The notes under the pieces are model-generated. The model saw nothing but the letters and a program-made list of their open reading frames with translations, had not been told where the DNA came from and searched no databases. The position numbers were made by a program, and so were the translations under genes. Of a DNA stretch of 64,000 nt, positions 1,261 to 57,262 are shown in pieces. The stretch's first letter is position 1. Each line of letters starts with the position of its first letter. The stretch is from Prorocentrum cordatum. Lineage: Eukaryota; Sar; Dinophyceae; Prorocentrales; Prorocentraceae. The DNA lies in NCBI GenBank assembly GCA_963575745.1, contig CAUYUJ010017861.1:105001-169000 (forward strand), in the 5' to 3' direction.

Positions 1261-2453
1261 AACATATATTTAAACATACATACGTGCGTAAACATCGATG
1301 TGCAAACCTAAATCATGCGCATAGATGTATGAAGACATTCACGCACACCTAGTTACATATCATTCCGCCAGCATGCAATACTTGAAGGTCCGAGGTGGAT
1401 GGCGCGAAGAGCTACTACAACGTTGAATGATACACGATACATACGTGCATTCACGTATGGAAAAAAAAGGACGCACCAAAATGACCGCAAAACAATGTAC
1501 GCAGCGATCCCCAAGTGCTTTCGCACGCGCGCGCGTCGATAGCCTCGCGACCCACGAGCTTGCAGCAGTCAAAACTGCGCCACGTCTGACGATCACGTGT
1601 TTCCAAAAAGATGGCTGCGAATTAATCCGCCGCCGCGCCCCCTAGCACCGTGAGGCGCGTTAAAATGCCAAGTGAGCTCAGGCATCTGCAAGTCATCGAA
1701 GGGCCACCCCTCCCACTCCCGCCTAACCGCATGCACCACCCCTACCCCTCCTGAGGCTTCTTGGACGCCACAGCCACACCGCCCCCCCCCGCCTGCAAGA
1801 GCCCAAGGAATCCCAAGAGGCCTCCAACAAGCCGAAAGACACCTCCAAAACGTTTTACACGAGGCCCCTGAGGAACCAACAACGACTTTCCTCAAATGTT
1901 CCTTCTTGAGTCTTTCCTCTGAGAATCGGGGTAAGATGCCATAGGAATTAAGGTCTCATGTTTACTACGCTCAGTGGCAGAGGGTATGGGATGAGACATC
2001 GATGAAACAATATGTTATCCGTTAAGCAATTGTACTCAAGTATCGGGAGGAGGCCGGCCGGCCGACGCCCGGACGCGGGCGCGCAGCGGCACGCTCCTTT
2101 TCTCACCCGAGCAGCAAAAGTAGCTGCGGAATACAGTAATACGAATGTCAAGGTATGACAAGGCAGGCATCAGGAGAGGCAACTATATGATGAGGCGGAG
2201 AGGAGCATATTGACTCCCCCCGCGGCGGGCTTCGTAGAATACATCCAGCCACAGCCCGCCCAGCCTGTACATATTTACAGCCACCGGGGCGAATCCCAAA
2301 AGCATTTTACTGCTCAACGGTGGTTGCCAGGGGGCTGAGGGCCGAAGAAACCCGACGAATCCCACCAATAATTAAGATAGAGCCTCTCCGCCGAAACGAC
2401 TGGGTCGTTCCGTCGGCGCCAATACGACTTGGTCGTTTGGCTCGCGTCTTCAG
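1261..2453. other. Intergenic stretch without supported gene
   Basis: Mixed-composition DNA including a C/G-rich patch (1780-1800) and a GGCC/CGCG-rich patch at 2050-2100. Short ORFs lack recognisable domains or consistent codon use. Part of 2183-2453 may be the 3' UTR of the minus-strand coding region that follows. Confidence 0.5.
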
Positions 2454-3244
2454 TCACTCGTTGTACCAGGAGGACTGCGAGTGTGAAGGCGGAGCAGGAG
2501 GTCTCGGAGTTGAAGACGAAGAACTTCCCTTCTGTCCAGCTGTCCGATGAGGCGCAGCTGACTTGCCTCCCTTGCCAGTGCCAGCGTATGGAGCTGGCCG
2601 GACGTTCTTGGACTTGCCCTTGTTCTTGGCGTACCGCTTGCCCTCCTCTCTCGAGAGGTAGTAGGTGTAGTAATTCAGGAACACAAAGTGCCACACATGA
2701 CTGTTGGGGTCTCTGGGTGTCTTCCAGTATATCATGTCACGGTGAACCCAGTCAGTACCCCTGCAACTCGCGGGACGCCGTGTACTGCGGGTAGTGGATC
2801 GCGGGGCCCCAGACGCCATCATCGCGGCCGGCAGCCATGGCCCCGCCGCGCGCGCGCAGTCATTGGCCGATCCCACGTGTCCCCGTCAGAAGAACGTCTC
2901 GAAAACTCCTCACCCGCCGATGCGGTTTGACCGCCGGCGCAGTAAGGAGACTCAGTGATGTCATCACTGGCCCGAGCGTCTTGGACCCTGGGCGGTCTAG
3001 GCGGGGCAGGTGGAGCCGGGCGGCTAGCAGGGCTTGGCCTTTCTGGCGCGGCAGGAGCCCCCTCCGAACCGGCTGGGCCGTCGGAGGGGTCTTCAGCGTC
3101 TCCTTCTTCGCGAAGGCGCTTTTCTTGCTGCAACTTCGCATATCTCACAATACCCATCGCAGCAGTAGTCACATAGGCACCGTATTTCCCACAGGCAGTG
3201 CGAAGGGAGCCTTCGTCACTGTCCTGTTCTTTAATAGATGCCAA
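2454..3244 (-). pseudogene. C-terminal part of an unidentified multidomain coding region
   Basis: Not recognised. One frame from 3244 gives a basic/acidic stretch (GIVRYAKLQQEKRLREEG) and then a Pro/Ala-rich linker down to about 2940. A second frame (about 2760-2454) gives an aromatic-rich block (DMIYWKTPRDPNSHVWHF, then LNYYTYYLSREEGKRYAK) followed by a Lys/Ser/Pro tail. Between them the plausible protein moves among frames, so at least two indels or unseen introns are required. It lies downstream of, and on the same strand as, the segments at 3231-9110, which I take to be one gene or gene remnant. The only real indicators are local amino-acid composition and strand consistency. Assigning a function would be guesswork. 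Confidence 0.4.
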
Positions 3245-4245: not shown

Positions 4246-4704
4246 TCAATATCTGTGGCCCAAATCAGGGGCCACCACTCTGCGATCGTTGGTTATGGAA
4301 CCCCTTCTCTCTGCCAGAAATGCCAGCCATTTTATGAACCTCCTCTTGAGAGGTTGAAGGTACTGGCAGAAAGGTCCGTGACGCGCCAGCGGCTGGGCCG
4401 CGGCGTCGTCAGGGACCCAGGCAGGAACACTGCCCGGGCGGCTGTTGCCAAAGGTTTGCCCTGCAGCAGCCATGGTGGTGCATCCACCGTTCGCCCACTT
4501 ACGCTCAAGCTTCAAATTGTTATTGGCGTTCGTCATGACATCCGCTGACGCTTTGCCCTGCCGTTGTCGTCTCTCTGCAACCGACCGATCTTGTTTCCAG
4601 GGCAAGTTGTCGTAATCACGAACGGTCAGCTTGAAGCCATTATTCCACAGTGACCGCTCAATGGTCCGCGACAGGAATGACTGGAGCCAAAAAAATGTGC
4701 GCAA
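4246..4704 (-). pseudogene. Frame-shifted continuation of the 471-aa ORF
   Basis: This frame continues the protein of the 4658-6073 ORF. Both frames share the run through Tyr-Lys-Tyr-Met, and the switch sits on a seven-T homopolymer (plus-strand A7, about 4688-4694). One T fewer would join the upstream ORF to the block FLSRTIERSLWNNGFKLTVR seen here. The rest (DYDNLPWKQDR onward) is charged, then Ala/Gly/Pro-rich. The homopolymer location makes an assembly or sequencing indel as likely as a real mutation. Confidence 0.45.
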
Positions 4705-22858: not shown

Positions 22859-24112
22859 CTAACGGAGCGAAAGACGCGAGAAAACAACGAGAAAACGACC
22901 CTCCAGGTCACCATCCCCCTGCTCAAAAACAGAAGACTCGCCGAGCTTAACAACCCGGGCCCGGAAATCAATCCGACATTCCTGACCAGAATCAGTTTTG
23001 ACAAGTTCGGCAGCCTTGCGCAGAGCCCAGTCTCTGGCCAAATCAACCTGCGACTTCGCGTACTTTATGTTGATTGTCTGACCGCTGGATGTACGGATAG
23101 GCTTCGCTTTGGCAAGCTCGATGAAATCAAAAGCCAAATTTGGCGCAACGAATTCCATGAAGGAAACCCGGGTCATCTTCTGGTTGTTCCGCGACCCGCT
23201 GAAGAAATGACCAATATTGCCAGAGGGAGGAACACTCGCCAACGAAGACACGTACTGCCGAATTTCGTTCGTCCGGAACTGGCCATCGACACTGTCGAAA
23301 CCGATGAAGGCGACCCGCCGATTAGAAGCATCCATCTTGCGCATCAGCGACTAATTCTGCTCACCTCCAATGCTTGAAGAACCTCCACGGTTTTCAACAG
23401 CAGTAAGTCTGGCACGAAAATCGGCCAACTCATCACGAATAGGATCGACAGCTTCTGAAATTGCAATTTCTGTCTCTGCCGAAATCCGTGCGTGCAGATG
23501 GTGGCTATCGTCCTTCGTGGCCGTCTCAGCCTTCAAACTCATGTTTGTCATGATGAACGTGAGTTTCTCATCCATTGAAGCAGAAGGAAGAGGAACTGCT
23601 GGACTCGTAGCCACCACATGCGCAGCCGCATGCACCGGGGGGACAAGACCCGCGCCCGGGCATGCACCTGGGGCCGACGCCACACCAGGGACTGCTGCAC
23701 TGGGGGACGCACCCGCACCAGGAGCAGTCGGCACGCCGCTCGCCGCCGCATGCCCCAGGGGGACGACACCCGCGCCTGGGCATGCACCGCTCGAACTGCC
23801 AAAAGCAGGAGCGGGAGCGCCAACCAAAATGGAGGCGCTCGGCGGGGGGCCCGGCGGAGCGACGCCTGGAAGCGTGCTCGGCGGGACCGCACTGCTCTGA
23901 CTGCCTGGAAAGACAGGAGCAGGAGCAAAATTGCCGGCCAAAGGGCCGGTTGACTCGTCCATCTGCGTCACTGTCTCAGCACGACGTTTGCTCTCTGGAC
24001 TGAGCGCCTGTTTCACCTCGTTGACCCTGACCGTCAGACGTCGTGCCTGCTCCACAGCTGGTTTTGCAAACTTGTTCTGCACTCCAGCCGTCGCAGCGCC
24101 CGAGGGAGCCAT
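22859..24112 (-). pseudogene. LINE-B ORF1 (coiled-coil/linker plus RRM) with in-frame TAG
   Basis: ATG at 24112 (MAPSGAATAG). Residues ~1-60 are basic/alanine-rich. An Ala/Pro/Gly/Val linker with GACPGAG-type repeats follows (~60-175), then a charged helical segment (AVDPIRDELADFRARLTAVE) that may trimerise. A TAG at 23351-23353 interrupts the frame, which reopens at once into the RRM-like domain (RRVAFIGFDSVDGQFRTNEI, IGHFFSGSRN, RDWALRKAAELVK) ending at 22859. The encoded product would bind LINE RNA. The stop separates oligomerisation and RNA-binding halves; whether it is a mutation or read through is unknown. Confidence 0.8.
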
Positions 24113-24202
24113 GACTTGAAGGGAACTGAAGAGTCTGTGATGGTTTGTGAAAAAATGCTGGAGGCCAGCCGCCCCGGCGACACACAAAAGATGTACCTTG
24201 AC

Positions 24203-25318
24203 TTTTTTTTTCTATCGGACCTCTGCGGTACACCACGGCACCAATCGGCAATTCAAACATTAAAATTCAGGGACAGGACAAGATAGATGGCGGGACGGCG
24301 GCCGCCGGAGCCAGCTAAGCAGGCCGGCGGGCGGCGCACTGCCGGAGGGAGGACGGGGAAACGAAAGAAGAAGACAAGGACAGGAGCAGAGCGAGGAGGA
24401 GAAGGAGCGAGAAGCGCCGGACGCGCCCGGCGAGAAAACGCCTGCGGACCGAGCACCGCTCAGAACCCGCACGGGGGGAGGAGCCAGGGAGCGGAGGAGG
24501 ACGGAGGAGGGGAAAGAGACAGGCAAACGAAGAAAAAGGAGAGGGATCAACCCATTCATCGGGCTGCCAAGAAATATAATTACGAAGGCTGTGCGAAGCC
24601 ATCGGCACACGCCAACTGAAAACCTGTGGCCAAGACGACCCCACGGCGGAATCGGCACGAAGCAATTTACGAAGGCGCTGAAACAATTTGACATTGTCAC
24701 CAGAGATGATTGAGTCAGGAAGAAGGTTGTACTCTCGTGCCATCCAATGCGTGAACGCACGAGGTAGTCAGGGGCACGGAGAGAACACGGGTCTCGCAAG
24801 TGACGGAAGTGGCGACGAGGGGAGGGGGGAGGAAGAGGGGAGGAGTCAACGGAGAATAATACACGAGGGCTGAAACCAAGTACAATGCGGCGAATAAGGC
24901 CCAAGTTGGCTATATCTCTGCGGGCAGGAAGTGGGGCAGGATTAAAGTTGCGCAAAACTTCGTACTCAGGTTGGCCCAGGGCTCGTAAAAAACCAGTCTG
25001 GACACGGTCAAGCGGCAACAATACAGAATTCAAAGCGTGTGAGAAGGCTGGCGTGTGGTATTCTATGAACGACAGAATGTGTGCTTTATAAGACAACATT
25101 CTCGGCAACAGTGTGGTAGCGCCGCGAGCGAAGCAAAGCCTGAAATCGCCAACCACATTCGTGCACACACTCAGATACCGCACCTGACATGACAAACTTG
25201 CAATCAAAAGAAACCCCGAGAATTTTAAACTTGCCACCAGAAAGGCGGCTACGTGAAATAATGTACCGGCTCTCCTTGGAAGCTTCAAACACAACAGCGT
25301 TGGCCCCATTCGTGCAAA
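24203..25318 (-). mobile_element. 5'-truncated LINE-A copy (RT C-terminus plus 3' UTR)
   Basis: Corresponds to LINE-A from about 16030 to 17275: it starts at GCACGAATGGGGCC within the RT domain after motif C, continues through the thumb and the DYLVRS block, the C/T-rich 3' UTR (with internal deletions relative to LINE-A), and ends at GGTCCGATAG plus nine A residues (T run, 24203-24211). The reading frame is partly open (25330-24260) but changes frame relative to the true protein. At this point the A tail meets the 5' leader of LINE-B. Confidence 0.9.
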
Positions 25319-47304: not shown

Positions 47305-48982
47305 AATTTAAAAACTAGCCTGTCGCAGGACCCATCCATATGCAGCCGCGAGTAACGAAAGATATTGCCTTCTCATCATGGGCAGCGCGCCGCGAGAGGG
47401 ATGGAACACGGGGCAACGCGGATGGGAACCCCGACGTGCGGGGTGTGCCGAAGTGGGCTGGGGGACGCATGCGAGCGCTGCCACTGGGGCCTTCGGCGGA
47501 GCTCCCCATGGGCCACGAAACAATGTGAGAGGTGTGTCGGAATAGGCAGAGGAAGGCACACGAACCCTGCCATTGGGGCCTTCGTTGGAGCTCTCTATAT
47601 GAGGCTGCGAGGCGTGTGAAGGGTGTGCCGACATGGAAGCGACGCCGCCATGCGAACCCTGTCGCTGAGGCCTGCAATGGAGCTTCCATGGGACCACGAA
47701 AAGTGCAGGGTGTGTGCCGAAATGAAGCGGGGCCGCCATGCGAACCGTGCCACTGTGCCCTTCGGTGGAGTCCCCAGTGGGGCCATGAGACGTGTGAGGG
47801 GTGTGCCGCAATGGAGGCGGGGCCGCCATGCGAATCTTGCCTCTGGGGCCTTCGGTGGAGCTCCCTATGGGGCATCGAAACGTGTGAGGGGTGTGCCGAA
47901 ATGGGGCGGGGCCGCCATGCGAACCCTGCCACCGGGGCCTTTGGTGGAGCCCCCGATGGGGCCACGAAGCGTGTGAGGGGTGTGCCGAACTGGGGCGGGG
48001 CCGCCATGCGAGCCCTACCACTGGGGCCTTGGGTGGAGCTACCTATGGGGCCACGAAACGTTTGAGGGGTGTGCCGCAATGGAGGCGGGGCCGCCATGCG
48101 AACCCTGCCACTGGGACCTTCGGTGGAGCTCCCTGTGGGGCGATGAGAAGTGTAAGGGGTGTGCTGAAATGGGTCGCGGCCGCCATGCGAACCCTGCCAC
48201 TCGGGCCTTCGGTGGAGCTCGCTATGAGGCCACGAAGCGTGTGAGGGGTCTGCCGAAATCGGGCGTGGCAGCGATGCGGTGGGGCCCCCGTTGGGGTCAC
48301 CAAACTTGTGAGGGGTGTACCGAAATGGGGAAAGGCCGCCATGCGAACCCTGCCACCGGGGCCTTCGGTGGAGCCCCCTATGGGGCCACGAAGCGTTTGC
48401 GAGGGGTGTGCCGCAATGGAGGCGGGGCCGCCATGCGAACCTTGCAAGTGGGGCCTTCGGTGGAGCTCCCTTTGGGGCCAAAACGTGTGAATAGTCGAAC
48501 TGGGACGGGGCCGCCATGCGAACCCTGCCACTTGGGCCTTCGGTGGAACTCCCCATGGGGCCACGAAACGTGTGAGGGGTGTGCTGAAATTCGGCGGGGC
48601 CGCCATGCGAACCTTGCCACTGGGGCCTTCGGTGGAGCTTCCTATGAGGCCACGAAGCGTGCGAGTGGTGTGCCGAGGTGGGGCGGGGCCGCCATGCGAA
48701 CCCTGCCACTCGGGCCTTCGGTAGAAATTTCCATACGACGCCACGAAGCGTGTGAGAGGTGTGCCGACATGGGGCGGGGCCGCCGTGCGAACCCTGCCAT
48801 GGGGGCCTTCGGTGGAGCTCCCTACGGGGCCACGAAGCGTGTGAGGGGTGTGCCGAAATGGGGCGGGGCCGCCATGCGAACCCTGCCACTTGGGCCTTCG
48901 GTGGACCCCCCGATTGGTACGAAGGGTGTGCTGAAACAAAGACATGTGGAGGGCAGAGGCACAGAGGCGGAGGAGGGAGGAG
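47305..48982 (+). repeat. Composite minisatellite element, unit II left part: leader F plus ~88-bp array
   Basis: Leader F (47305-47440): AAACTAGCCTGTCGCAGGAC, CAGCCGCGAGTAACGAAAG, GGCAGCGCGCCGCGAGAGGG. About 16 tandem units follow (47450-48930); landmark GTGTGAGGGGTGTGCC is spaced 88-89 bp. The array exits into GACATGTGGAGGGCAGAGGC, then CGGAGGAGGGAGGAG (48968-48982), where LINE-C interrupts. The purine tract and module E of this unit resume at 54842. Reverse-complement counterparts of F and of the exit sequence flank unit III at 57260 and about 56430. Confidence 0.9.
48968..48982. repeat. LINE-C target-site duplication, left copy
   Basis: CGGAGGAGGGAGGAG. The right copy is at 54842-54856, 14 of 15 identical. 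Low complexity of the site means the exact length is uncertain. Confidence 0.7.
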
Positions 48983-49017
48983 CAAACGACACGCTGGGGA
49001 GAGCGTGCGTCTGTCGC

Positions 49018-49751
49018 TTAGCGGCGCAGCGGCCCCGCGCCGCCCACGAGGCAACGGGGGGGCCTCAGAGCGCGGCGGGCGGCGGCAACCACCTCCTTGT
49101 GGTAGATGTAATCGCTGTGGTCGGTGTGCATGTCGTTCACGTGGCGGATCCGCATGATGTTGTAGGTGCGGTAGGCGACGGCCATGCGCACTATGGTGTG
49201 CTTCGGGTGGTCGCCGAAGATGTCATTCTGGTGGAGGCCCAGGCGCGTGAGGGCATCGCCAGCAGGACGTCCTCGTGGTTGTGCCGAAAGCGCTCACAGC
49301 CGTGGGCACGAGATGTAGTGGCTGATGTCGTCTGTGTTCTTAGCCTGCAAGTCTTTGTCGCAGCCGAACAAACAGTTCTTCTTGTGGGGGTTGATGTGCA
49401 TGCGGTGCGAGGTCGTCCATGCGCCTGATAATGTCTTGACCGTGGGCCAGAAAAGAGATGCCGTGGAGTTCGCCAGGTGGGGCCGTAGATCGCGCCAAGC
49501 GTGTTCAACACTAGCGGGGAGAGCAGAGCGGCCAAGAAGTCCGTCACGGTCGGAAGTATCGGAGTTCATCATGATGTCGCTGGTTGAGTGGGCGGGAAGC
49601 ATGGTGGTAGTCGAAGTTGTAGACGCGGTGTCACCATCATCCTGCGGGAAGTTCCGGTTGGTGGCACGCTCGCGTTCGATCCAGCGACGACGGGCACGGT
49701 GTTCAGCAGCTTCGTCAGCAAGTTCTCGCTGGGTGGTAGTCGACATGACAT
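49018..49751 (-). pseudogene. LINE-C polyprotein: C-terminal zinc-knuckle-like end
   Basis: Resumes the true frame after the 5-bp duplication: TTTQRELADEAAEHRARRRW, an STSTTT linker, HAWRDLRPHLANSTASLFWP, then HKKNCLFGCDKDLQ and TDDISHYISCPRL. This is a Cys/Cys/His/Cys arrangement typical of LINE C-termini (CLFGC ... HYISC). A TGA at about 49303-49301 follows CPRL where Trp would be expected (TGG to TGA). The same frame then continues through GLHQNDIFGDHPKHTIVRMA and VAYRTYNIMRIRH to a TAA at 49020-49018. Without the TGA the protein would end there. Confidence 0.8.
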
Positions 49752-51545
49752 GTGCTCGTTGTTGTAGATCTCCAGGCGGTGATTACGAGGGCGGTCGGCT
49801 CGATGCCATGCGCCGTAACAGATCTCCGTCGCCATGTCACGGCGGGCACTAGGAGACCCATGCTCGTCGTCGAGGCTGAAGTGCGCGTTGAACTGGGGGC
49901 GATGTAGTACAGCCGTGACGTAGGGGACGCACCAGTCCATCCAGTCGTTGAAGTTGTCCATGTCGCGGCCGAAGAACACGCTTGGGATCCATCTCGCAGC
50001 CCATGCTTCAGCGCGTTCGTTCAGGTACTTCATGGGGTCGTGGTTGTCACTCCCAGTCAGTTGCTCGGATGTGGAAGGCGCCATCGGAGAGCCACTGTCG
50101 ACAGGAAGTAGTGGGAACCAGGCACGAAGACGAAGATGAATGGTCTTGTGGAGGGAGTCGCGGTACAGCTGACGTTGTAGTTCACGTAGGTAGGCTTGTT
50201 GTGGGGAAGTTCGTGATGAGGCGCTCGGGGAAGTAGTGCTCGAAGAGCTGGGCCCAGCTTGTCTCTGATGAAGTCCGCCAATCCTGTCACGACTGGGTGT
50301 GTAACGGCCACCAGCCCTGTCACGACTTGGTGCCCGGTAATCACCAGTCCTGTCGCGACTGGGTGTACGGGGATCCTCCGCCATGTCACGGCGAGAGGCC
50401 TGGAGAGCGTGCCGTCCAGCTGCAGCAGCTTGCGCATGGGCTCGTTGAAGTGCACGGGCAGCATTCACCGTAGAGCCTGTGGATCGCGTGAGAGTCTTGA
50501 AGACGGAGCCTTTGCCTGTCACGATCAGCTTGTTGTGGTAAATGGCGTCGAAGCGCTGCACAATGGAGGTGGCGTCAATCCAACAAGAGGCAGACCAGCT
50601 GCCAGCCACAACGTCGCATCGTGGGAGGAGGTCTTCAGCATGAGCACGGAGTCCATGAAGCAGAGGCTGCCAGTCAGGAGTGGTCGTAGTGGAGGCGCGC
50701 CACATAGTCGCAGCAAGAAGCGTTTCGATGCCCTGCGGGATCGTGGCCGACGCCCGCAGCGTGAACGACAGGATGTCCATCTTTTTGAAGCTCGATGGGG
50801 CAGCACGGTTCAACTTGTGGAGGCCATGAATCTCCTTGGACAGGAATGCTGGGGATGGCGGGTAGAGCTGGCCCACGTACGAGAGACAAGTTATGGCAGC
50901 GGAGTTGTACATCTTGATGCTCTGCTGGATGGGGGCGTTGGAGTCGCTCGGAATCTGAATGCGTTCCCACCACTTGTTGGCAGGTCCTTGCCATTGACGG
51001 TCAAGAGATGCGCCAGGGCCGATGTGCACACCGAGGTATCGCGCAAAGCTGTTGATGGAGAAAGCTTGCCACGGCTCGTATATCTGGGTTAGAATAGCAC
51101 GCATGTTCGCGATGATCTCGGGCGTCGGCAAGGACCAGGTGGGCACGAGGACGCACTTCTTCGGTTGGAGGCGGAGGCCAGCGTGGTGGTGAGCAGCTTG
51201 TAGGTGTGGGAGAAGAGCACCAAGATCCCGAAGTGCAGCAAGAACGATACCCAAGTCGTCGGCGCAGGCGCTGAGAAGGCCTCTGCCCAGGGCGGTGAGT
51301 TCCAGCTTGAGGCCCTTGATGATGGGATCGAAGACTAGCGCCCAGAGCGTGCCGCTCAAGGGACAACCTTGAGCAACCCCTGGTTCTGCGAGAAGCAGCG
51401 GCCGGCGGATCCCACCAAGTTCGAGAAAGGCAAGTGGCATGTTGTAGCAACTTTTGCAGGAGATTGAGAAAGACGCCGTGGATGCCCCATCGCCGTAGAG
51501 TGGCCCACAACCACGCGTGCGTAAGACTCGGAAGCGCAGCCGCAA
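49700..51545 (-). pseudogene. LINE-C polyprotein: RT motifs B-C, thumb and C-terminal linker
   Basis: Continues the RT after a frameshift near 51475: YNMPLAFLELGGIRRPLLLA, motif B PGVAQGCPLSGTLWALVFDP, motif C LLSACADDLGIVL with both Asp, FARYLGVHIGPGASLDRQWQ, SFTLRASATIPQGIETLLAA. A tandem peptide repeat (TPSRDRTGDYRA, PSRDRAGGRYT, PSRDRIGG) and Ser-rich linker follow, then WIPSVFFGRDMDNFNDWMDW and ATEICYGAWHRADRPRNHRL. At 49742-49751 a 5-bp tandem duplication (ATGTC twice, minus strand) throws the frame; the annotated tail after EHMS is out of frame. Confidence 0.85.
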
Positions 51546-54500
51546 TGCCCATGCTGGCGAAGCAGGGCATCAGGGTGGGGGCGTCGCTGTTGATGCTGGT
51601 GAGACGGGCGATGGTGTCAACCTTGGCGATGTTGGATAGGAATTGGCGGCCATTGACAAAGCCTTGTAGCTCTTCTTCGGTGTCCGACGCGACGGAGCTG
51701 AGGATGCGATTCGCGGCGGCGGCGATGATCTTGATGTCACTGTTCTTCATGGCGAGGGGGCGGAGACAGTCAGGGCTGCGAGAGCACTCGTAGTTGCCCA
51801 TGGGCTCGTCACCCTTGGGAAGCATGGCCATGAGCGCGTCGTTCAGGTCGTAGGGGATCGGGCCGCCGTGAGCAATGGAGTGGAGGAGGTCGTGGAGGAT
51901 AGCTATGCTGCCGTCGGATCGTACCCATGCGCGGTAGGGAAGTCCGTCAGGTCCAGGAGCTGAGTCACTGGCGAGCTTAGCTGCGGCTTGGAGTTCATCA
52001 ATCCCAGGTAGAGGCAGATGCCGTGGAGGTGCTAGTGGGAGGACCCAATCCAGGTACTGCTGCATCGCTGGGGTGTCTACTGGCTTGGCGGCAAACACCT
52101 TCGACCAGTGAGATTGAATAGCGCTGTGCATGCTCATGGGGTCTTTGGCGTGAGTCGGGCCACTGCTGTCGGTGATGCGGACGCCTGCTGGGATCAGGCG
52201 CTTCGAGAACGGCTTCCAGATTTCACTGCGCTGTCCAATACGGTGGGCACGACGTCTCCGTTGTTCTCCTAGGTCGGGCCGTTGTTCAGCGTAGGCTGCT
52301 CGCGAGCGGGCGGCAGCAGCACGACGACGCTGTTCCGCGATCTGATGTTGCATGGCGGAATGCTCAGTCTCGAAGGCGGTGCGGTCGACAAGAGAGATCG
52401 TGTGGTGGTGGATGTCGATGTGCTGTGCCCCGGCGGTGGTGTCGTTACGAAGCCGCTGGGCAAGAGTGAGGTCCTGGTGCCAGATGGCCCTGGCAATACC
52501 GCGGAGCGTACGCGCACGTGCCTCTGCTGTGACATGAGAGTCTTCCCTCTGGCTCTCGATCGGCATGAGCTCGGAGGCGGACAAGGTGGTGATGGTAACG
52601 CGAGACTTACGCGCCGCCAGCTTCATTATGTGCTTCATGGTCCCCCAATTCGAGATGGGGTCGGCAGAGAGGTCGGCCATCTCGACAAGGCGCTGGAAGT
52701 AGAACTTGTAGTGCTTGGACTCGACGGGTAAGGCAGGGGTGCCACGCTCGCTGACTGGACGTGGGTGTCGAGGTCGGAGTCGTAGATGTATAAGTTTATG
52801 ATCGCTGATGGGCTCTCCTTCACGATCAAGCGGTCTGCCATCAGCAACAAGCAGGGACTCGATGTGCGGGATGTTGGACGCGTTGATCGAGACGAAGCAT
52901 CTGTCGATGGTCGCCTCCGTTAGGTTGGCAGCGCATGGATGAGTGGTGGCCTTCGTTGTGATCTCCATCATCTGCGAGAATATGTTCTTCCAGAAGACGG
53001 GCTGGTAGTGGTAGCGCTCGGCAGTGGAGTCCGCGGTGGGGTGGGGCGCGCTCTTCGGCGGCGTCTGTGCGATGTTGAAGTCGGCGACCATGAAGTAGTC
53101 GTGGTTGTCAGGGTGGAGGGCAGAACGTTGAGCGGCTGCCTGCCACGCAGCTCTGAAGCGCTGTCGACCAAGGTCGCTGAGGTCGTAGTTGTGGATGTTG
53201 AAGATGGTCGTCTCGTGCTGCCTAGCTCCATCTTGTGCGCGACGTTCACCAATGCGGCCAGGGACGCTCGCGCGACATGTGCGTAGGGGCCGTTGATCGG
53301 GTGGTAGTTGTTGTTCTGCTCGATCAAAGGGAACCAGGAATGCGATGCCGCCTGCGGTCTCCGAGGAGTGGCCGTCTGTCACGAGTGCTGAGTGGAAGGC
53401 AATGTACTTGTGGTCGGTGCTCGCGGCCAGGATGTCCATGTCGATGCTGCTGCCGTGAGTCTCTTGGAGGGCGATGACAGCACGTTGCCGCATGTAGGAG
53501 AGCAGCAACTGGCGCTTGACGGCGCGCCGAGATGCCGATCTGCCGTTCAGCGCCTGTGTGTTCCACGTAACCAGGTTGAAGCCATCGGGGTGTGGTTTCG
53601 TGAGCCACGGCGACCATCGCGTGCTAAAGCCACCGTGCTGCCTCCAGCGGGTTGGCGAAAGCAGCAGCCAGCGCGGCAGCCAGGGCTCGTGCTCGGTGAT
53701 GGGGGTGCCAACGGGAACAGCAGCGTCGGACCAGCGGATTCGGGTCGCTTCATCAGGAGTGGCTCCAGCCGTGACCTGAACGATGGGGGCGCCGTTGATG
53801 GACAGGAAGCCGCCAGTACGGTGGACCCGAGTCTCGAGCATGGGGAACTTGTCATTGATGAGCTTGTTGAGCTTCTTGAGTTGTACTTCCTGTCGGACCA
53901 TGCGTGGTGATTTGTCCGCAGAGACGTAGAAGGCGGTGGTGCCAGATTCGGATTCAACATGGAAGCGACGCCATTCACGACCTTGTCGAAGTGCGCGGTG
54001 TAGTGCCTGGGCTCGCGGAAGAGCAACCGTGTTGCCACCCGTAAGCGTGAACGAGATCCTCCGTGCTGGGCCTTCCGAGTTGATGCGGAGCGCGTTGATG
54101 TCCACCTCCGCAGCGTCGAACCAGGGGGCCAGCGCGATCTTGAGCGAGGCGACGGGGAACTCTGAGGCAGCACCGCACCAGAAAGTAGCTGCATTCGGTG
54201 GCCGGTCCCAGGCACCGATGGCGTCCATGTCCATGGCTGGGTGGAGAGCTTCAGCATGTCGTAGAGCTTGTTGAAGAGCGTCCACGCTGGTCTTGAGGTC
54301 GCCTTGGAGTCGTTCAGCTCGGTCAGCTCGGCCTTTGAGTTCGGCGATGTCCCGCTCGGAAGACTCCTGGCGGGTGCTGAGCTGCTCGGTGACCTTCGTG
54401 ATGTTTGCCAGGAACTCGGCTTGTGCTGCAGCAGCGACTTGCTTGGAGGTGGCTTCGAAGGCGGCGGTGGCTTTGTCGACCTGGGTCTGGAGAAGGTCGG

Positions 54501-54819
54501 TGAGCGCCTTCCGCTGGTGTGCAGGTAGATAGATTGCGGAAAGCTTTTGAGCGCCAGCGGCCCAGGGGTCGGCCACGGAGGAGTCCTTGCCCTTGCCCTT
54601 GTCGACGGCGTCGGCAGAGCCAGAGACGCCAGGCAGACCCATCGCGAGGCGAGCGAGTACAGGGCCAGCGCTGCTGGCGAGTGATATGTAAGCTGCGTCT
54701 CTGCAGCAAAGAATATGGAGATGCTCAACGCCGCGGGCACGGCGAAGGCGGAAAGCAGTGGTCCTAGCAATCCCCGGACCAGGGGTCTCCGTGCTCTGCC
54801 ACGGGGCACAAACATACAT
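51475..54819 (-). pseudogene. LINE-C polyprotein: N-terminal region, endonuclease and RT fingers/palm A
   Basis: ATG at 54819 directly follows the SL; a second candidate start is MGLPGVSGSADAVDKGKGKD about 60 codons in, so the first stretch may be former 5' UTR. Residues ~95-190 are an Ala/Gln/Glu-rich coiled coil (ATSKQVAAAAQAEFLANITK, RQESSERDIAELKGRADRAE). A ~150-residue domain with GPARRISFTLTGGNT follows. The endonuclease (~415-690) has NLVTWNTQALNGR, VIALQETHGSS (metal-binding Glu), YFMVADFNIA, EPISDHKLIHLRL. RT begins near residue 940 (DSAPGPDGLPYRAW, FVNGRQFLSNIAKVDTIARL). Motif A reads MGIAAALPSL, with Gly (codon 51549-51547) where an Asp is expected. The frame is lost at about 51475. 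Confidence 0.88.
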
Positions 54820-54841
54820 CTTGAGCCAAAATGGCTACGGA
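54820..54841 (-). other. DinoSL spliced-leader relic, perfect 22 nt
   Basis: On the minus strand: T, then CCGTAGCCATTTT, then GGCTCAAG, identical to the conserved dinoflagellate spliced leader with T at the variable first base. The next bases on the minus strand are ATGTATGTTTG, not a GT donor, so this is the exon portion on a retro-copied mRNA and not an SL RNA gene. It sits exactly between LINE-C coding sequence and the target-site duplication. Confidence 0.97.
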
Positions 54842-54990
54842 CGGAGGGGGGAGGAGGAGGAGGAGGAGGAGGAGGAGAGGAGAGGAGAGGAGAGGAGATG
54901 AGAGAAGCGCGGGACACTGTCTCTTCAAAACGAAGACCCAACACCACAGGAAGGTTGGGACATTTTTTTGCCCATCTCATCCTATGGTGG
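54842..54990 (+). other. Composite element unit II, right part: purine tract and module E (copy 2)
   Basis: (GGA)n/(GGAGA)n tract 54842-54905, then module E at 54907-54967: GACACTGTCTCTTCAAAACG, AAGACCCAACACCACAGGAA, GGTTGGGAC. It is the displaced 3' end of unit II, separated from its array by LINE-C. Confidence 0.9.
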
Positions 54991-55290
54991 TGGGCCACCC
55001 TTTTGAATCAGCAGCGCCCCCCGACACTTCTTTCTGCTTCCTTCTTCTTCCTCCCCCTCCTCCTCCTTCTCCTCCTGCTCCTCCTGCTCCATTTCCTCCT
55101 CCTCCTGCTCCTCCTCTCCCTCCTCCTCTCTGCTTGTTTTTTTATAATCATCGTCACTTTTGTCATCATCACCATCAACGGCAACAACATGATCATCATC
55201 ATCGTCATCATCATCACCATCAGCATCATCATCATCATCACCAGCAGCAGCAATAACAAAAACATCATCACCACCATCACCACGGCCACA

Positions 55291-55321
<31 letters not shown>

Positions 55322-56200
55322 TCATCAGCAACACCACCATCATCATCATCACCATCATAATCAACATCATCATCATCATAGCCACCACCATCATCACCAC
55401 CACCATCACCATCATCATCAACACCACGACCTTCACCATCATCACCACCATCGTACTCATCATCGTCAGCATCATCACGAACTTCATCACCAACATCATC
55501 ATCATCATCAGCAACACCACCATCATCATCACCATCATCATCAACATCATCATCATAGCCACCACCATCATCACCACCACCATCACCATCATCATCAACA
55601 CCACGACCTTCACATTCATCACCACCATCGTACTCATCATCGCCATCACCATCACCACCACCACGATCATCAGCATCATCACCAGTATCGTCACCACTAC
55701 CATCACCATCACCACCATCGTGATCACCATCATCACCATCATCACCATCATCACCATCATCATCGCTATCTTCAGCACCATTAGCAGCACCATCACCACC
55801 ATTACCATCATCACCACACCGACACCACCTCTATACTCATCATCATCATCACCATCACCACCAACACCACCATCGTCATCATCATCATTATTATCATCAC
55901 CATCATCATCACCAACAGCATCACCACCACCACCATCGCCATCATCATCATCATCGTCATCGTCATGCGCATCATCATCATCATCATCATAATCGTCGTC
56001 GTCGTCGTCGTCACCACCATCATCACCATCATCATCATCATCATCACCACAATCATCACCATCATCAGCATTATCATAATCGTCATAATCACCATCACCA
56101 TTACCATCACCATCACCATCACCATCATCATCACCATCACCATCACCATCACCATCACCATCACCATCACCATCACCATCACCATCACCATCACCATCAC

Positions 56201-56248
<48 letters not shown>

Positions 56249-56272
56249 AACCATCACCACCACCACCTTTAT
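54991..56272. repeat. (CAT)n/(CAC)n trinucleotide array, ~1.2 kb
   Basis: After a C/T-rich lead-in (TCCTCC repeats, 55045-55130), 55138-56272 is almost wholly CAT/CAC/CATCAC repetition with internal ~215-bp duplications (for example the run around CACCACGACCTTCACCATCA at about 55425 and again near 55605). It ends in a pure (CACCAT)n and (CAT)n stretch. Frames of poly-His/Ile/Thr/Asp/Met through it are artefacts. Confidence 0.95.
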
Positions 56273-57262
56273 TCCCAACCATGCTGTGGTGTTGCGCCTT
56301 CGAATTTGAAGAGACAGCGCCCCGCGTTTCTCTCCTCTCATCTCCTCTCCTCTCCTCCCCCTCCTCCTCTTCCTCCTCCTCCTCCTCCCTCTTCCGCCTC
56401 TGTGCCTCTGTCCTCCGCATGTCTCTGTTTCGGCACACCCCTCACACGTTTCGTGGCCCCATAGTGAGCTCCACCGAAGGCCCCACTGACAGGGTTCGCA
56501 TGGCGGCCCCGCCCCATGTCGGCACACTCCTCACAAGTTTCGTGGCCCCAACGGGGGCTCCACCGCATGGCGGCCCCGCCCCATGTCGGCAGACCCCTCA
56601 CAAGTTTCGTGGCCTCAGATGCAGCTCCACCGAAGGCCCCAGTGGCAAGGTTCGCATGGCGGCCCCGCCCCATTTCGGCACGCCCCTCATACGTCTCGTT
56701 GCCCCATAAGGAGCTCCACCGAAGGCCCCAATGACACGGTTCGCATTGCGGCCCCGCCCAATTTCGGCCCCCCCCCCCGCGCGTTTCGTTGCCTCGAAGG
56801 AGCTCCACCGAAGGCCGCAAAGGCAGGGTTCGCATGGCGGCCTCGCCCCATTCCGGCACACCACTCACACGTTTTGTGGCCCCATAGGGAGCCCACTGCA
56901 GGCCTCAGCGGCAGGGTTCGCATGGTGGCGTCGCTTCAATTTCGGCACACCCTTCACACGCCTCGCAGCCTCATGTAGAGCTTCACCGAAGGGCCCCAAT
57001 GGAAGGGTTCGTATGCCTTCTTCTGCCTACTTCGACACACCCCTCACATGTTTCGTGGCCCATAGAGAGCTCCGCCGAAGGCCCCAATGGCAACGCCCGC
57101 ATGCGTCCCCCAGCCCATTCCGGCACACCCCGCACACGTTTCCGGGTTCTCATCCGCGTTGCCCCGTGCTCCATCCCTCTCGCGGCGCGCTGCCTATGAT
57201 GAGAGGGTGATATCCTTCGTTAGTCGCAGCTGCACATGGTTGGGTCCTACACCAGGCTAATA
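56273..57262 (-). repeat. Composite minisatellite element, unit III (complete, minus)
   Basis: Read on the minus strand: leader F (57262-57130; TTAGCCTGGTGTAGGACCCA, CAGCTGCGACTAACGAAGG, GGCAGCGCGCCGCGAGAGGG), about eight ~88-bp units (57120-56440), exit sequence GACATGCGGAGGACAGAGGC, (GGA)n tract (56395-56330), module E (56325-56273). It is the only copy in the window with all four parts in uninterrupted order. Confidence 0.88.

Follow-up and report, generated by a model that had tools for sequence, protein, structure and literature searches.

How does a complete host spliced leader come to stand at the very tip of a LINE? The question is raised by a single retrotransposon, here called LINE-C, in 64 kb of Prorocentrum cordatum DNA (the window, that is, the whole stretch that was analysed), where positions 54820-54841 of the minus strand are identical in 22/22 letters to the dinoflagellate spliced leader (DinoSL). 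This is the sole match at up to 3 mismatches in the window, no match at this threshold appeared in any of 100 dinucleotide shuffles of the window, and the next-best 22-mers reach 15/22; elsewhere in the window no SL-like sequence was found at up to 5 mismatches. The leader and its immediate surroundings are as follows.

54820..54841, minus strand: complete 22-nt DinoSL, an exact match, at the 5' terminus of the inserted element and with an ATG directly after it
54643..54819, minus strand: 177 nt from the SL to the second in-frame ATG, open, with a weak codon-phase signal, possibly 5' UTR
54842..54901, minus strand: pyrimidine tract, 58/60 nt C or T, directly before the SL

The letters 3' of the leader read ATGTATG, so that the ATG of the LINE follows without a spacer. 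A GT donor directly after the leader is absent, and so is a simple Sm-like pattern in the 88 nt after it; as in DinoSL-tagged retrocopies, the SL stands at the 5' end of the copied RNA with no GT donor behind it. The 5' end of LINE-C carries no stacked SL relic. The SL-adjacent ATG may not be the true start, since codon phase is only faintly visible in the 177 nt that follow the leader: GC by codon position is 0.64/0.63/0.58 at 54643-54819 (59 codons only), against 0.68/0.49/0.67 over the 900 nt beyond. A 40-nt tract that is at least 95% pyrimidine, the kind of sequence that precedes the leader, begins at 0.15% of the minus-strand positions of the window.

Where the element begins and ends was established from its flanks and from a copy of the target repeat that has received no insertion.

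48983..54841, minus strand: full LINE-C insert, 5,859 nt from SL to 3' hairpin, with bounds from the unoccupied paralogue and the duplication
54842..54856, minus strand: 5' copy of the 15-nt target-site duplication (CTCCTCCCCCCTCCG), which ends the pyrimidine tract
48968..48982, minus strand: 3' copy of the 15-nt target-site duplication (CTCCTCCCTCCTCCG), 14/15 to the 5' copy
56273..56520, plus strand: unoccupied paralogue of the target repeat, 1.4 kb from the insert, the shared 15 nt being 56382-56396

Since the target of LINE-C is low-complexity pyrimidine sequence, the 15-mer alone was not relied on for the bounds; beyond the two duplicates, the window contains one further 14/15 match to the 5' copy (at 545, minus strand). 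In blastn comparisons the upstream flank of LINE-C matches 56273-56396 (plus strand) and the match of the downstream flank begins at 56382 (plus strand); both fall in one unoccupied paralogue and share 15 nt of it, 56382-56396. Under harsher gap and mismatch costs the upstream match ends 5 nt earlier, at 56391, and the downstream match still starts at 56382. The shared segment agrees with the two duplicates at 13/15 and 14/15 positions, and three other sites with the upstream part of the repeat (59.4-59.6, 0.4-0.6 and 61.9-62.1 kb) align worse across the junction. A chance 15-nt duplication in a pyrimidine tract is disfavoured by this overlap of the flanks, which also places the start of the insert at the first SL base, 54841. 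The sequence-only reading had put a 22-nt DinoSL directly between the LINE-C coding sequence and a 15-bp duplication, and this arrangement is borne out by the identity of the leader (22/22), by the duplicates (14/15) and by the unoccupied paralogue. Because the paralogue carries a similar pyrimidine tract, the tract before the SL probably predates the insertion. TCCG is present twice at the 5' junction, one copy coming from the target and one from the SL; judging from these letters, no end homology appears to have been consumed there. The window's direct repeats of at least 24 nt include no terminal repeats of LINE-C, which thus shows a target-site duplication without terminal repeats, as APE-type LINEs do.

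The surroundings of the insertion are themselves repetitive. A repeat of about 89 nt (GGGGCCGCCATGCGAACCCTGCCAC...), present in both orientations, takes up a large share of the window's right-hand part; it adjoins the pyrimidine linker both at the LINE-C insertion and at the unoccupied paralogue. Between the upstream flank of LINE-C and that paralogue, positions 55140-56250 hold about 1.1 kb of degenerate CAT/CAC trinucleotide repeat. No Rfam matches were obtained in the window.

1-504, and 46.1-46.9, 47.4-48.9, 56.4-57.1, 57.9-59.0, 59.2-62.2 (with gaps) and 63.6-64.0 kb, both strands: repeat of about 89 nt

The coding content identifies the insert as an APE-type LINE, with an APE-like endonuclease (PF03372, E 1.3e-9, in the 1,272-codon ORF 51001-54819) upstream of a LINE reverse transcriptase (PF00078, E 1.5e-7, in the ORF 49569-51545).

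52798..53571, minus strand: APE-type endonuclease domain (PF03372, residues 417-674)
50541..52131, minus strand: reverse transcriptase and following region according to the coverage of the relatives, in two frames, with the motif A aspartate changed to glycine near 51.55 kb
51421..51470, minus strand: first frame change, frame 2 to frame 3, from the matches to P0002 and P0003
49572..49782, minus strand: stretch within which the second frame change lies, frame 3 to frame 2, from the open-frame ends and the flanking frames
49294..49296, minus strand: in-frame TGA in the C-terminal region, spanned by the similarity to P0002 and P0004

Protein-database relatives were found for both ORFs, one for the first and three for the second (P0001-P0004), each within 8000 scored candidates; they share 24-40% identity with LINE-C over the matched pieces and jointly span the endonuclease, the reverse transcriptase and the C-terminal region in that order, the identities of the reverse transcriptase relatives in the protein-database table being 32-35%. 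None of the four provides DNA 5' ends for comparison. Motif A of the reverse transcriptase reads SMGIAAALPS in LINE-C, and P0001, P0002 and P0003 have an aspartate at the position of the glycine. A peptide pattern searched against viral contigs matched 7 stretches, none of them a relative, and tblastn detected no second copy of the LINE-C family within the 64-kb window. With two frame changes, a stop and the motif A aspartate lost, the copy would now hardly be able to move by itself; being decayed, it is uninformative in its present behaviour on the original event. Its DinoSL has stayed unchanged, which for modest decay over 22 nt is unsurprising.

At the other end of the element, 35 nt lie between the last stop codon (49018-49020) and the 3' boundary, and these were folded with the cut made at the boundary fixed from the flanks.

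48983..49013, minus strand: terminal 3' hairpin that ends at the last base of the element, with no poly(A); -15.6 kcal/mol, z -4.2 (last 35 nt)

None of 200 shuffles of the last 35 nt was equally stable (the hairpin is the final 31 nt), and 1.3% of 1942 windows of 35 nt taken along LINE-C are as stable as the terminal one. When 20 more upstream bases are included the hairpin is kept, with a z of -1.2 and 22/200 shuffles as stable. A hairpin at a flank-defined 3' boundary in an element without an A-tail suggests that the element's own 3' end is recognised, rather than that a poly(A)-seeking machinery was at work. Stringent-type LINEs, zebrafish ZfL2 among them, are marked by a 3' stem-loop to which the LINE protein likely binds, according to the part of PMC4176376 available; in a stringent-type family the stem-loop would also be conserved from copy to copy. 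LINE-C, known here from one copy, ends in a 3' stem-loop, and stringent-type 3' recognition may be taken as a lead for this element.

Other LINEs in the window belong to a family different from that of LINE-C.

about 12.8-17.3 kb, plus strand: LINE-A, outer limits estimated
about 19.2-24.2 kb, minus strand: LINE-B, outer limits estimated, first ATG at 24112
24203-25316, minus strand: 5'-truncated LINE fragment, identity to LINE-A 91% across 843 nt and 82% across another 353 nt

LINE-A, LINE-B and the truncated fragment form one family; in tblastx, LINE-B has no similarity to LINE-C, and the LINE-A region gives two marginal matches (E 3e-5 and 1e-4), both in a simple repeat before LINE-A. The best SL-like remains before LINE-A and LINE-B reach 12/22 and 13/22, below the best chance matches in the window (15/22), their 5' bounds not being fixed. 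Because they are of a different family, have 5' bounds that are not fixed and include a truncated fragment, these elements are weak controls that do not decide the SL question. In both of the 3' ends of this family that could be compared, GATAG precedes A-rich sequence. The start region of LINE-B directly adjoins the A-tail of the truncated fragment (window 24110-25316), and LINE-B may have inserted at that tail. LINE-B may begin just after GTCAAG (24202-24197), which has 5 nt in common with the end of the SL, too few to weigh at a boundary that is not fixed.

Outside the window, an exact search with 21 letters of DinoSL returned one viral contig (L001) and two genome contigs (L002 and L003); bases 1-600 of L002 and bases 3300-5151 of L003 show no LINE. 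L003 (GTDB contig JAKUNN010000063.1) is filed under a Dehalococcoidia MAG and carries a eukaryotic rDNA repeat (SSU, 5.8S, LSU), an apparent contamination; at 4334-4354, in the LSU-SSU spacer, its DinoSL is followed by GTACGC and probably represents an SL RNA gene within rDNA. L002 (GTDB contig CAJXDJ010000191.1, also from a Dehalococcoidia MAG) begins with a (TCA)n run, has an exact DinoSL at 31-52 and is possibly chimeric. L001 (IMG/VR contig IMGVR_UViG_3300045993_001077) is listed as viral and has a GC of 0.17 outside 1791-2950; within it, a piece at 1791-2768 with a GC of 0.49 contains a complete ORF of 254 aa (1936-2700, minus strand), led by an exact 21-nt DinoSL at 2746-2766; 126 bp upstream of this leader, at 2893-2913, there is another exact DinoSL. 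The 254-aa ORF has no Pfam family above the cut-off and its neighbouring ORF is a glycosyltransferase; the piece has the look of an SL-tagged retrocopy that a large DNA virus took up from a dinoflagellate.

What process, then, placed the leader on LINE-C? It is very probable that the RNA of LINE-C was trans-spliced by the host, copied from its hairpin up to the very first nucleotide of the SL, mobilised by its own machinery and inserted with a 15-nt duplication. DinoSL would replace everything upstream of an AG acceptor in or before the LINE-C 5' UTR; the LINE machinery would start at the 3' hairpin of the capped RNA and read through to the first SL nucleotide; the product would insert with its duplication into the pyrimidine linker of the local repeat, and the copy would have decayed afterwards. 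From the SL exon, the bounds, the duplication, the unoccupied site and the hairpin, all of which are seen in the sequence, we infer that trans-splicing was the source of the SL and that the element mobilised itself. Where a LINE is tipped by an exact SL exon and flanked by a duplication, the simplest explanation is a trans-spliced LINE RNA that was copied from its hairpin to its capped end. The earlier proposal, in which the RNA of the LINE itself was trans-spliced before being reverse-transcribed as far as its very end, is thus supported: the exon boundary is exact, the duplication and the unoccupied paralogue fix the insert, and the 3' end is a hairpin. Counted against it are the single copy, the fact that the SL is not on every dinoflagellate mRNA, the hairpin z of -1.2 in the extended fold, and the lack of an SL at LINE-A and LINE-B, which are of another family and have 5' bounds that are not fixed. 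DinoSL is attached to mRNAs by trans-splicing. In the parts of the literature available, DinoSL-bearing mRNAs of dinoflagellates are described as returning to the genome as retrocopies (PMC7245778, PMC6050394, PMC12014239), and full-length transcripts with the SL amount to 13.5% and 50.4% in two Polarella isolates (PMC7245778).

The same letters could have arisen in other ways. It is rather unlikely that the machinery of another element acted in trans on the messenger of LINE-C, as on that of a host retrogene, which would make the SL uninformative on the life cycle of LINE-C: a great many host mRNAs have been copied back into the genome (PMC6050394 and PMC12014239, in the text available), LTR elements are regarded as the likelier machinery in the available part of PMC6050394, and the window holds another LINE family of which two 3' ends are A-rich; against this, LINE-C ends at its terminal hairpin without an A-tail. 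A template switch, in which the reverse transcriptase left the LINE RNA for an SL RNA or for a different mRNA capped with the SL, has a precedent in the chimeras of mammalian LINE-1 with other RNAs (PMC13174262, from the portion available), but it is improbable here, for the junction is the exact end of the SL exon with the ATG immediately after it, and a jump to SL RNA should leave intron bases after CAAG, a jump to an mRNA other mRNA sequence. That SL letters adjoin a LINE also speaks for an SL gene array, or for a site-specific element of the SLACS/CZAR/CRE type inserted in an SL gene. A dinoflagellate SL RNA gene consists of an SL exon, a GT donor and a short intron with an Sm site; SLACS, CZAR and CRE elements are inserted inside SL RNA genes and have a restriction-like endonuclease. 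The window has a single SL, with neither a GT donor nor an Sm-like pattern, which excludes that the DinoSL of LINE-C is part of an SL RNA gene or array, the case named beforehand as refuting the sequence-only reading; the SL in the rDNA spacer of L003, by its GTACGC, is unlike that of LINE-C. The endonuclease of LINE-C is of the APE type and its duplication is a pyrimidine tract without SL letters, so that it is not a SLACS/CZAR/CRE element either. Both variants together are left with an almost negligible probability.

If the RNA of LINE-C was indeed trans-spliced, does the leader play any part in the cycle of the element? A LINE must carry its promoter within the RNA that gets copied. Trans-splicing strips everything before the acceptor, a promoter located there included, and the LINE-C event may therefore be a dead end; in trans-splicing hosts each new LINE copy would be killed in this way, unless the leader replaces the lost role. 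The further proposal of the sequence-only reading, that the leader has become part of the mobile element and may supply its 5' UTR or cap for mobilisation, gains no support from this one decayed copy. A self-renewing SL cycle of LINE-C is possible, although we think it doubtful that the SL is the regular, regenerating 5' end of the family, with no need for an internal promoter. In such a routine, a read-through transcript would be trans-spliced at an AG in or at the end of the genomic SL, and the capped mRNA would be translated, copied and reinserted. In its favour, the genomic SL retains two AGs (TCCGTAG and CTCAAG) and is directly preceded by the tract of 58/60 pyrimidines; splicing at the last AG would give back the single SL that LINE-C has, and the 15-nt retrogene relic CCATTTTGGCTCAAG, taken from the available part of PMC12014239, is the remainder expected of splicing at TAG, a splice site proposed here. 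Against it, there is one copy only, which is decayed and lacks a stacked relic, and PMC12014239, in the same part, reads some of the relic pattern as a TG non-canonical acceptor. That paper surveyed a transcriptome for the 37-nt tandem of SL and relic and, as far as its available text goes, assigned one relic to 95% of 6,544 retrogenes and more than one to 5%. Still somewhat less likely than a routine SL end is a promoterless LINE family living on host trans-splicing, whose copies would start with the SL and land in pyrimidine tracts, the tract and the AGs of the SL then serving as the next acceptor and the leader as both a regenerating 5' end and a source of the cap. As the LINE-C copy indicates, a LINE RNA that had been trans-spliced was taken as a template and copied in full; the leader may be a tombstone or else the family's means of regaining a 5' end.

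Among known systems, DinoSL-tagged retrogenes of dinoflagellates, reportedly treated by Slamovits and Keeling in 2008 (cited in PMC6050394), are the closest. A literature search, with Song et al. 2017 and Slamovits and Keeling 2008 outside its scope, found no dinoflagellate LINE with an SL. In a Symbiodinium genome, SL relics lie within 500 bp of viral RdRp insertions in 6/26 cases and are taken as a sign of retroposition (PMC10235124, in the part available). Trypanosomatid L1Tc/ingi elements resemble LINE-C in being LINEs that encode an AP endonuclease and live in a host whose mRNAs are trans-spliced, but the available text on trypanosome L1Tc describes an internal promoter (Pr77) and unspliced transcripts, by which L1Tc avoids the loss of its promoter, whereas the copied RNA of LINE-C would have been trans-spliced (PMC4748587). 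Transposon RNAs of Hydra also make use of host trans-splicing, the SL being found on 30.9% and 29.7% of TE Iso-Seq reads; this evidence, as given in the part of PMC12220107 available, is from RNA only, whereas LINE-C is an SL-tipped genomic copy. In flatworms, 597 loci with partial leaders are associated mainly with LTR and LINE elements, and retrotransposon transcripts that were trans-spliced and then integrated have been offered as a possible explanation (PMC12582326, from its available text); these loci share with LINE-C the presence of SL letters in retrotransposon DNA and differ in phylum, in the SL itself and in the partial state of the leader, which in LINE-C is complete and accompanied by a duplication. 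In DinoSL-tagged retrogenes, in turn, the DNA copy of an mRNA keeps the host leader at its 5' end, as described in the accessible parts of PMC12014239 and PMC7245778, and LINE-C is like them in this respect; it differs in being a copied LINE RNA with a leader complete to the first nucleotide, a hairpin and no A-tail, and in having both ends, the duplication and the unoccupied site resolved. SL-tagged retrocopies are thus already known, and what is new in LINE-C is a complete case that is resolved from end to end.
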